Shown here: positions 4,094 to 7,015 of the stretch, in pieces | How positions within the stretch are numbered: position 1 is the first letter of the stretch | Layout: each line of letters opens with the position of its first letter | DNA from: Pedobacter antarcticus | GTDB taxonomy: Bacteria; Bacteroidota; Bacteroidia; Sphingobacteriales; Sphingobacteriaceae | Direction of reading: 5' to 3' | DNA: 64,000 nucleotides | NCBI RefSeq assembly: GCF_900112985.1 | Contig: NZ_FONS01000003.1 | Span: forward strand, 248,001-312,000 | Notes under the pieces: model-generated | Seen by the model: the letters and a program-made list of their open reading frames with translations, nothing else | The model's database searches: none | Told to the model about the DNA's origin: nothing | Program-made: the position numbers and the translations under genes

Positions 4094-4136
4094 TTCTCTC
4101 CAATCTTCATTTAACAAAGTATTTACATCCTGAGTT

Positions 4137-4166
4137 TTTGCAAATGTATTGCATTTAGTATATTTG
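4137..4166 (+). promoter_or_regulatory. Promoter with embedded Fur/Zur-type operator
   Basis: TTTG (4137-4140), an 18-base spacer and TATATTTG (4159-4166) match the Bacteroidota -33/-7 promoter. Within the spacer, 4142-4156 reads AAATGTA-T-TGCATTT, a 7-1-7 inverted repeat with one mismatched pair, the layout of Fur-family operators; the AAATGT half-site recalls proteobacterial Zur boxes. Since the operon it drives ends with a Fur-family gene, autoregulation by zinc is the simplest reading. Binding itself is inference. Confidence 0.65.
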
Positions 4167-4217
4167 TATGACCGCCTTTTCCGGGTTAGCCGGAATCTGT
4201 TAAAAAACAGGTCATAC
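4166..4217 (+). promoter_or_regulatory. Structured 5' leader of the zinc operon
   Basis: GTATGACC (4166-4173) pairs with GGTCATAC (4210-4217). Between them lie two hairpins, TTCCGG/CCGGAA (4179-4184 with 4190-4195) and CTGTT/AACAG (4197-4201 with 4206-4210; the last G is shared with the outer stem). Folded together they make a three-way junction ending 4 bases before the ATPase start. The expected transcript start (about 4170) may trim the outer stem. No known riboswitch class is recognised; the outer arms could instead be a DNA operator. Confidence 0.4.
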
Positions 4218-4221
4218 CCGT

Positions 4222-4857
4222 ATGCAGCAGATGATCAGTATTAAAGCTTTGGCACATGCCTATAACCAGGATAAGAAGATAAACTTCGACGACTGGCAGG
4301 TGAGCAAGGGAGAGCAATGGTTGCTGCTGGGTAATTCGGGTAGCGGAAAGAGTACGCTCCTGCATATTCTGACAGGTATCCTTTCCCCGTCAACCGGTCA
4401 GGTAGAGATTAATGAAACAGAAATCTATCAGTTAAAACCACGAGAGCTTGACCGTTTCAGGGCATTGCATATCGGGATTGTATTTCAGCGTCCGCATTTG
4501 ATCAAAAGCCTGACCATTCAGGAAAACCTGTTGATGGCCCAGAGTTTTGCCGGGCTGCCGGAAAACCGCAACAGGATTCAGGAAGTACTTGAATCGCTGG
4601 CAATTTCAGCTTCTTCACACCAATACCCTTCTACCCTCAGCCAGGGACAGCTACAACGTGCATCTATAGCCCGGGCTGTGATTAATAAGCCAGCCTTACT
4701 GATTGCTGATGAACCCACTTCCAGTCTCGATGACCAGAATGCCGGAACTGTTCTCCGCCTGTTAAAAGAACAAACTGAGCTGAACCAGTCTACATTGGTC
4801 ATTGCCACTCATGATCAGCGAATTAAAGAAGCGTTTACACATACTTATACCCTGTAA
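4222..4857 (+). CDS. ABC transporter ATP-binding protein, LolD/MacB type (zinc operon)
   Basis: The 211-residue protein is a single ABC domain with Walker A GNSGSGKST (about 39-47), signature LSQGQLQR, Walker B ALLIADEP and a THD switch. A second ATG at 4231 is possible. The LolD/FtsE/MacB class powers FtsX-like permeases that move substrates or extract lipoproteins across the periplasm instead of classic import. Its stop overlaps the permease start (TAATG at 4855-4859), so the two are translated together. The operon also holds a DUF3299 gene and a Zur-like regulator, which points to a role in zinc supply. The gene set resembles, from memory, the Zur-controlled MacB-like operons of Pseudomonas (PA4063-PA4066) and Vibrio (zrg). 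Confidence 0.88.
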   Translation: MQQMISIKALAHAYNQDKKINFDDWQVSKGEQWLLLGNSGSGKSTLLHILTGILSPSTGQVEINETEIYQLKPRELDRFRALHIGIVFQRPHLIKSLTIQENLLMAQSFAGLPENRNRIQEVLESLAISASSHQYPSTLSQGQLQRASIARAVINKPALLIADEPTSSLDDQNAGTVLRLLKEQTELNQSTLVIATHDQRIKEAFTHTYTL

Positions 4858-6074
4858 TGAGCCCTTTACAAATCAGCTGGAAAAGCTTAAAATCAAAACC
4901 GCTGTCCTCGGGACTAAATATATTGCTCATTGCATTTGGAACAGGCATACTTACTATTTTATTACTCGCTTCCAGACAGATCGGCGATAAATTAACACAA
5001 AACTCAAAAGATATCGACCTGGTTGTCGGTGCTAAAGGAAGTCCTTTGCAGCTCATCCTGAGCAGTATCTATTATATGGACAATCCTACCGGCAATATCC
5101 CTTTAGAAGATGCCCAGCGACTTTCCCGCAGCCCCTTTGTCAAAAGAGCTGTGCCATTAGCCATGGGCGATAATTACAAAGGCTTTAGGATTATCGGTAC
5201 AGACAGTAATTATATCGCACTTTACCAGTTGAAAAATGCATCAGGCCAGTTCTGGAAAAAAGATTTCGAAGTTTCCATTGGTGCTTCTGTTGCAGAACAG
5301 CAGCAGCTTAAAATCGGAGATACCTTTCTGGGTGCACATGGCTTAACGGAAAATACACACGTCCATGATCACCATGCCTATAAAGTAACGGGAATCCTTC
5401 AGAAACAAGGAAATGTAACCGATAATCTGATCCTTACCAACATAGCGAGTGTATGGAAGATGCATGAAGAACCGCAGCATGATCATGCCGATGAGAATGA
5501 ACATGAACACGCAGAAGAAGAGCCAGCCGGAAATAGGGAAATCACCTCTTTACTTATCCAGTACCGTTCGCCAATGTCTGTTGTCATGTTCCCAAGAATG
5601 GTTAATTCGGCTACCCAGCTACAGGCGGCCTCCCCTGCCATGGAAAGCACAAGACTGTTCTCCCTAATTGGCGTAGGGATTGACACCTTGCAGTGGTTTG
5701 CATTTCTGATCATGCTCATTGCGGCGGTTAGCGTTTTTGTAAACCTTTATAATTCATTAAAAGAAAGACAGTATGACCTGGCCATTATGCGGACACTGGG
5801 TGCCTCCAGGATCAAATTGTTCAGGATTGTAATAGAAGAAGGCCTCCTATTAACATTAACCGGCACAATTGCAGGCATCCTTCTTGGACATATCGCCGTA
5901 GAGCTGATTGGCTCAGGACAGGAAAGCAGCCAGGCAAGGCTTAGTGGGCTGGTTTTTCTGAAAGAAGAAATTTATTTATTTGCCGCTGGTCTGGCTATCG
6001 GTATATTTGCGGCTATTATCCCTGCCTGGCAAGCTTATCGTGCAGATATCGCTGCAATACTGGCTAAAAACTAA
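4857..6074 (+). CDS. FtsX/MacB-like permease with His-rich periplasmic loop
   Basis: The 405-residue protein has one N-terminal membrane helix (about 18-40), a large periplasmic domain and three C-terminal helices (about 280-400), the MacB_PCD plus FtsX layout. The periplasmic domain carries two His clusters: THVHDHHAY (about 167-175) and HDHADENEHEHAEEE (about 209-223). Such clusters commonly bind zinc or other transition metals. Together with the Zur-like gene downstream this suggests a metal-responsive transporter, though the transported species is unknown. In the gammaproteobacterial counterparts I recall the His-rich function as a separate protein; here it is built into the permease. The gene is coupled to the ATPase gene by a 1-base overlap. 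Confidence 0.85.
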   Translation: MSPLQISWKSLKSKPLSSGLNILLIAFGTGILTILLLASRQIGDKLTQNSKDIDLVVGAKGSPLQLILSSIYYMDNPTGNIPLEDAQRLSRSPFVKRAVPLAMGDNYKGFRIIGTDSNYIALYQLKNASGQFWKKDFEVSIGASVAEQQQLKIGDTFLGAHGLTENTHVHDHHAYKVTGILQKQGNVTDNLILTNIASVWKMHEEPQHDHADENEHEHAEEEPAGNREITSLLIQYRSPMSVVMFPRMVNSATQLQAASPAMESTRLFSLIGVGIDTLQWFAFLIMLIAAVSVFVNLYNSLKERQYDLAIMRTLGASRIKLFRIVIEEGLLLTLTGTIAGILLGHIAVELIGSGQESSQARLSGLVFLKEEIYLFAAGLAIGIFAAIIPAWQAYRADIAAILAKN

Positions 6075-6088
6075 CCTATAAACACCTC

Positions 6089-6526
6089 ATGAAAAAATTA
6101 TTTTTGATCTGCCTGTTATTTATTGGATTTAAAACCTACGCACAACATGATCCGAATGATCAGATCATGTCTCAGAACTGGGATATTATCGGCGGGGTGG
6201 ATTTCAAGATTATTAAGGACACGCATATGGTGGCGAAATTTACGCCTGAAATTAAAAAGTATGCTAACAAGCCATTTGAGTTGGAAGGATACCTCGTTCC
6301 TATCAAAGATGGAATGAAACAGACTAAGTTTATGTTGTCTACCCTTCCAATTAATCAGTGTTTCTTTTGCGGTCAGAATGGCGTACCGATTATGGTATTG
6401 GTAGAACTGGCCGAACCTATTAAATTTACCTACCACACTATTACAGTAAAAGGAACTCTCCGGTTAACTGAAGGCAATGCGATGGATAATCCGCCGGTTG
6501 CATTAATAAATGCCAAATCTATCTGA
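6089..6526 (+). CDS. DUF3299 family exported protein
   Basis: The 145-residue protein has a signal peptide (MKKLFLICLLFIGF..., likely cleaved after YAQ, residue 19). The mature part contains FELEGYLVPI, then NQCFFCGQNGVP with a CxxC pair, then IKFTYHTITVKGTLRL, matching the DUF3299 pattern (GYhhP, metal-like or redox Cys pair, V-xGxL). The biochemical role is not established. DUF3299 genes accompany MacB-like ABC genes in zinc-regulated operons of other bacteria, and the same pairing is seen here: 14 bases after the permease, with the Zur-like start 1 base after its stop. It may handle metal in the periplasm. Confidence 0.75.
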   Translation: MKKLFLICLLFIGFKTYAQHDPNDQIMSQNWDIIGGVDFKIIKDTHMVAKFTPEIKKYANKPFELEGYLVPIKDGMKQTKFMLSTLPINQCFFCGQNGVPIMVLVELAEPIKFTYHTITVKGTLRLTEGNAMDNPPVALINAKSI

Positions 6527-6527
6527 T

Positions 6528-6977
6528 ATGACTAAGATTAACCCCACAGCACTACTGAAAGAAAATGGTCTGAAACATACCAGACAAAGAGTAAGAGTGC
6601 TGGAAGAAATAGCACTGGACACCGTTGCAATATCGCAACCTGAACTGGAAAAGAAACTAGGAAAGGAAATTGACAGGGTCACTCTATACAGAATCCTGAA
6701 TATTTATCAGGATAAAGGCATCCTGCACAGGATTATGGATATAAATGGAACGGCAAATTACGCCATTTGCTCCGCTGCCTGTTCAGAAGATCATCACCAT
6801 GATGATCATGTGCATTTTAATTGCACTTGCTGCCTTAAGATCTATTGCCTGGAGGTTAAAGCTCCGCATTTAAAAATGCCACATGGCTTCAAAGCTGTCA
6901 CGACTAACACAACTGCTTACGGTATATGTGAGAAATGTGCTCAGCTGGAGACAGAATCCGGTACAGAGCTACAATAA
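6528..6977 (+). CDS. zur: Fur-family transcriptional regulator, probable Zur
   Basis: The 149-residue protein has the Fur winged helix (GLKHTRQRVRVLEEI, then RVTLYRILNIYQDKGILHRI) and a metal-sensing C-terminal half with a His-rich EDHHHDDHVHFNCTCC segment and a final GICEKC. The CxxC pairs form the structural zinc site of the family. A start at 6510 is open, but the ATG at 6528 directly after the DUF3299 stop gives the usual Fur length. Being the last gene of an operon with a His-rich permease and DUF3299 favours Zur over Fur or PerR. The 7-1-7 palindrome in the operon promoter is its likely target; that is inference. Confidence 0.78.
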   Translation: MTKINPTALLKENGLKHTRQRVRVLEEIALDTVAISQPELEKKLGKEIDRVTLYRILNIYQDKGILHRIMDINGTANYAICSAACSEDHHHDDHVHFNCTCCLKIYCLEVKAPHLKMPHGFKAVTTNTTAYGICEKCAQLETESGTELQ

Positions 6978-7015
6978 AAAAAGGCTGCAGATATCTGCAG
7001 CCTTTTTTTATTGTA
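6970..7015. terminator. 46-bp perfect palindrome, bidirectional terminator
   Basis: The arms (6970-6992 and 6993-7015) are exactly complementary with no loop bases, holding an A-run, GGCTGCAGAT and the mirror with a T-run. It contains the stop codon of the Zur gene and ends 14 bases from the slyD stop, so it serves both converging units. Confidence 0.92.

Follow-up and report, generated by a model that had tools for sequence, protein, structure and literature searches.

We analysed a 64,000-nucleotide stretch of the genome of Pedobacter antarcticus (the window), a member of a genus of soil bacteria; the host genome is 4.57 Mb in size. Positions 4222 to 6977 of the window hold an operon of four genes in the same direction, encoding an ABC ATPase, a permease, a DUF3299-like protein and a regulator, and a terminator ends the operon. 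The features of the region are as follows.

4137–4140, + strand: -33 box TTTG of a Bacteroidota-type promoter (direct reading)
4137–4155, + strand: Zur-like putative operator TTTGCAAATGTATTGCATT, a 12/14 match to a motif conserved in relatives
4142–4156, + strand: palindrome AAATGTATTGCATTT of an earlier reading, overlapping the operator in the wrong register
4159–4166, + strand: -7 box TATATTTG, 5 nt past the operator core
4166–4217, + strand: 5′ leader, predicted three-way junction (-19.9 kcal/mol, z -3.2)
4222–4857, + strand: ABC ATPase of the LolD/FtsE/MacB type, a separate polypeptide (PF00005, E 4e-34)
4857–6074, + strand: MacB/LolCE-like permease with MacB_PCD and FtsX domains (PF12704, PF02687; AlphaFold2 pLDDT 84.9)
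5337–5378, + strand: first His cluster of the permease, residues 161–174, with H161 and H170 invariant
5463–5522, + strand: second His/acid cluster of the permease, residues 203–222, with invariant H203 and, after it, a loop whose length varies
6089–6526, + strand: secreted DUF3299/PA4066-like protein with a conserved CxxCG motif
6528–6977, + strand: Zur-like Fur-family regulator, the last operon gene (PF01475, E 3.4e-8; ligand residues)
6980–7009, strand not given: terminator hairpin with a T-run (direct reading)

A sequence-only reading of this DNA had named all four gene products, and the genes are indeed present at the positions listed. It had also described them as tightly packed, which holds for the TAATG overlap of the ATPase and permease genes and for the 1-base joint between the DUF3299-like and regulator genes, but not for the permease and DUF3299-like genes, which are 14 nt apart. 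The regulator gene does close the operon, an arrangement taken to be peculiar to this locus but usual in Pedobacter.

For the ATPase, every listed NCBIfam model gives a score under its cut-off, and the LolC/E and LolD equivalog scores are likewise too low (66.8 versus 362 bits and 158.5 versus 308 bits, respectively). The AlphaFold2 model of the permease matches the structures of MacB and LolE, and a mechanotransmission-type fold such as that of the LolCDE and MacAB-TolC permeases is predicted. The window system nonetheless differs from both in that its ATPase and permease are unfused, there is no MacA and no second Lol permease, and its proteins miss all curated Lol and MacB cut-offs. The two His clusters previously assigned to the periplasmic domain of the permease could be located at residues 161–174 and 203–222, with residues 206–223 forming a loop that is a low-confidence part of the model. 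Among family permeases the loop after H203 ranges from almost nothing to ~40 residues, mostly with many His and acidic residues; the His-rich part inside the permease seen here is shared by much of the family, though some members have almost none of it. The His loop is probably zinc-binding.

Taken alone, the third gene product is a weak DUF3299 match (PF11736, E 0.07, 13.7 bits, with a gathering cut-off of 22 bits), but 19 of 20 members of its family match PF11736 (best E 1.9e-5). The best solved structure for the family profile is 4hsp (E 0.004), that of P. aeruginosa PA4066 (PMC8561739). Residues C91, C94 and G95 are kept in all aligned copies. When the model of the protein is compared with the PDB it gives weak OB-fold-like matches (best E 0.015; 4hsp is not among the 50 matches listed), which would agree with the OB-like description of PA4066 without amounting to proof. 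Two or three DUF3299-like copies are found in many Pedobacter operons, and tandem DUF3299-like genes, two to four per operon (L046, L190, L192-L201), differ in the surroundings of the CxxCG motif.

The window regulator has a Fur domain, with PF01475 above its cut-off, and can be aligned with structurally solved Fur and Zur proteins. The structural zinc site CxxC...CxxC (C98, C101, C133 and C136, in alignment numbering from 6531) is invariant in 12 sequences, and the Zur-type regulatory ligands H66, C80/C84, H93 and H95 are conserved in nine window-type regulators. The regulatory-site ligands of M. tuberculosis FurB are D62/C76/H81/H83; those of the window regulator align with them, but His replaces Asp as the first ligand. 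The ligand pattern supports a Zur-like identity, and we say Zur-like because the protein reaches the curated cut-off of no NCBIfam regulator model; it is not a member of the Zur equivalog NF008646 (28.7 versus a cut-off of 167 bits). Control by a Fur-type (iron) or peroxide regulator and operator, instead of by zinc, might be read from the best NCBIfam score, which is to the Fur model (43.9 bits, versus 28.7 for Zur, both below cut-off), and from the annotation of the two closest solved structures as Fur. We consider such control very improbable, however, as the regulatory site has a Zur-like Cys that is missing from the aligned Fur sequences, the box discussed below has COG0523 and MerC genes as targets and a sibling box at zinc exporters, and a separate strong PF01475 match in the genome (L001, 105 bits) is a likelier candidate for the iron or peroxide regulator.

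Bacteroidota promoters have the consensus TTTG/TAnnTTTG, and in the window 18 nt lie between the -33 TTTG and the -7 box. A Fur-type operator had been proposed within this spacer as a 7-1-7 palindrome. The palindrome is present at 4142–4156 as described, but a 7-1-7 palindrome with one mismatch at most occurs in 998 of 5000 shuffles of the 128-nt intergenic region, and because ~20% of shuffles give one as good, this register is no evidence alone. We rejected it as the operator on register, the conserved motif lying three bases upstream. The operator core TGCAAATGTATTGCA (TGCAA-N5-TTGCA), at 4139–4153, takes in the end of the -33 box and occupies most of the spacer, and it matches the consensus AATGCAA-N5-TTGCATT, which was read from promoters of relatives. 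The window operator is identical in a sister genome (G188). Shuffling of the window intergenic region gave a 12/14 match in 32 of 20,000 cases and the exact core in 3 of 20,000, figures that are partly post hoc in that the motif was found by inspecting such promoters, while the consensus came from relatives.

The conservation of the motif was scored in 73 named operons, counting as a match any site with 12 or more of the 14 motif positions in the 800 nt preceding the ATPase gene. All 30 operons with an adjacent regulator gene contain it, versus one of the 43 without, and the reversed motif is found in neither group; the 30 regulator-bearing operons are mostly from Pedobacter and interrelated, such that the counts do not represent independent events. 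At the level of whole genomes, the exact motif is found in 38 of 151 family genomes and the reversed motif in three. Control of the operon by this operator and regulator is therefore well supported at the sequence level, and the expectation that the palindrome would be conserved across species is borne out by the motif kept upstream of related operons, though in another register. The idea of an operator between the -33 and -7 boxes holds as well, because the motif sits just 5′ of TAnnTTTG at a near-fixed distance: the core ends 2 nt before TAnnTTTG in 26 of the 30 operons, where the box is further upstream and most have merC as their first gene, and in four a site near the ATPase gene lies 5 nt before it, as in the window. 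An operator that overlaps the promoter in this way fits repression by steric block.

Alternatively, the palindrome could have arisen by chance and control of the operon could be exerted by other means, such as its structured leader. The frequency of the earlier palindrome in shuffles speaks for this, as does the strong folding of the leader; yet shuffled sequences seldom yield the shifted motif, relatives keep it at near-fixed spacing, and the promoter and leader together occur in only 2 of 99 genus genomes (one sister genome besides the window) as a single copy, leaving this explanation barely credible. The sister genome (L162) keeps the outer arms GTATGAC/GTCATAC and the CCGG stem of the leader, with changes. 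No Rfam match exceeded the gathering score, and none was found in the leader at E ≤1; we rejected the leader as a repeat or known RNA, as it is single-copy and free of such matches.

The association with a Zur-like regulator is not universal. In Algoriphagus, Dyadobacter, Cyclobacteriaceae and other genomes, Cytophagales cases included, the ATPase-permease-DUF3299 core occurs without an adjacent regulator or the motif, and the machine is therefore not tied to Zur everywhere and is older or wider than zinc control. A further element, GTAGCAAATACTTTACA, is near-unique and conserved upstream of the operon in many Pedobacter (upstream of the ATPase gene in L036-L043, L164-L176, L178-L186), often ~65 nt before the start codon; it also lies upstream of several Pedobacter operons without an adjacent regulator, and the window has a diverged form of it at 4111–4127.

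Pattern searches with the motif across the genome show the same box at the COG0523 GTPase gene (AATGCAACTAAGATGCATTT, with the core 6 nt before TAGATTTG), and in relatives COG0523 and MerC genes are among its targets. Elsewhere in this genome, exact matches to TGCAA-N5-TTGCA comprise one 5′ of a Czc-type cluster (L068) and several within genes (for example L066, L069, L159 and L160). No match to MerC was found in this genome, nor any to the family of ZnuA, the binding protein of ZnuABC. In relatives the ATPase gene is often preceded by merC and a lipoprotein-like ORF of about 45–55 aa with an LNPxCKHG motif; both are absent from the window (ORF loci: L172, L184, L189, L190, L192-L203, L038).

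A second Zur-like regulator (L003; ~36% identical) is encoded immediately 5′ of a gene for a zinc-type P-type ATPase (L003:1465-3306, G000:C24), and TGCAATAGCATTGCG lies between the two genes. Genes of the P-type ATPase, CDF and Czc kinds (L003, L067 and L068, and in relatives L127, L139, L140, L142, L144 and L149) have a sibling box, TGCAATnnnATTGCA, which lies 12–14 nt from the -7 box. The corresponding distance is 2–7 nt in ABC and MerC promoters as well as in the COG0523 promoter of this genome, and 16–18 nt in the COG0523 promoters of relatives. The different placing, seen at few sites, could mean activation instead of repression, with a Fur-family activator of zinc efflux as a possibility; there is precedent for Zur-activated efflux in Caulobacter (PMC4176598) and elsewhere (PMC6103462). 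Because its box is very similar, the related paralogue could also bind the window site, in addition to or instead of the operon's own regulator. The Zur regulon of Caulobacter crescentus resembles the present one in that Zur represses scarcity genes, among them zrpW, a putative transporter of an uncharacterised family, and the same protein activates RND and P-type efflux (PMC4176598); but a single Zur plays both roles in Caulobacter, whereas here the tasks appear to be divided between two Zur-like paralogues whose boxes are siblings.

The likeness to Zur-regulated operons of Pseudomonas and Vibrio, which the sequence-only reading had drawn, is supported by the link of the DUF3299 family to 4hsp (PA4066) and by matching published gene sets. 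Like the window operon, P. aeruginosa PA4063-PA4066 encodes a separate LolD/MacB-type ATPase, a 4-TM MacB-like permease and a PA4066/DUF3299 homologue, and its regulation is linked to Zur, as is predicted for the window operon (PMC11481552, PMC8561739). The window operon differs in lacking a PA4063-like gene for a His-rich periplasmic protein, the permease having the His-rich loop instead, and in including the regulator gene. Vibrio ZrgABCDE shares the ATPase (ZrgC), permease (ZrgB) and DUF3299 protein (ZrgE), and the genes for these are induced 76- to 148-fold by zinc limitation in V. parahaemolyticus (PMC9817125); genes for ZrgA (DUF2796) and ZrgD (DUF2607) are missing from the window operon, and its operator, TGCAA-N5-TTGCA, differs from the Vibrio type, TGAGTGTTATATTATAACACCCG. 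Because there is no separate PA4063/ZrgA-type gene, we regard the window operon as a variant rather than a member of the PA4063-PA4066/ZrgABCDE type.

We consider it very probable, from the sequence comparisons, that this is an autoregulated, Zur-controlled zinc-scarcity operon, a Bacteroidota variant of PA4063-PA4066/ZrgABCDE, with zinc as the presumed signal acting through repression and autoregulation. When zinc is sufficient, the Zur-like repressor would occupy TGCAAATGTATTGCA in the promoter spacer, between the -33 box and the -7 box, and so exclude RNA polymerase; as zinc falls, the site would be freed and the four proteins made. ATP hydrolysis by the ATPase with its MacB/LolCE-like permease would then move the periplasmic domain with its His loop, the secreted PA4066-like protein would serve as a helper, and extra repressor from the last gene would close the regulatory loop. 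The description of the operon as an autoregulated zinc system fits the co-occurrence of operator and regulator and the COG0523 and MerC neighbours, but the term zinc system leaves the direction of transport open.

Published relatives disagree on function: ZrgA of V. parahaemolyticus is reported to aid zinc acquisition (PMC9817125), and PA4063-PA4066 has been argued to export a pyochelin-cobalt complex (PMC11481552). A Zur-controlled MacB-like exporter, with a metallophore, a complex of metal and ligand or a competing metal (cobalt, for example) as its cargo, would share the proposed control of the operon; it would suit the closeness of the modelled permease fold to MacB and LolE and the report on PA4063-PA4066, but the operon has no gene for a MacA-like adaptor or a metallophore, the ZrgA report points the other way, and the His-rich loop and the company of MerC and COG0523 point to zinc supply. 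We hold an exporter to be a tentative, minority possibility. We favour a role at the periplasmic face, where the complex would relieve zinc shortage through mechanotransmission; the machine would most likely handle periplasmic zinc, or a zinc-linked molecule, in a cell with no detectable ZnuA. A stronger version, in which the MacB-like complex is itself a main zinc-supply machine of the ZnuA-less cell and ATP-driven motion of its periplasmic His-loop domain, aided by the PA4066-like protein, causes zinc to be mobilised or handed over instead of being carried through the permease, seems rather unlikely; if true, it would amount to metal acquisition unlike that of known ABC importers.

Bacteroidota are not mentioned in the text of a 2018 review of Zur regulons. 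The analysis provides a testable Zur box, AATGCAA-N5-TTGCATT, a rule for its position in Bacteroidota promoters, and a putative target set for the Sphingobacteriaceae. A transporter of the PA4063-PA4066/Zrg type, the direction of which is disputed, is now placed in genomes beside its own regulator, COG0523 and MerC, and because of this company the question of its function may be easier to attack.
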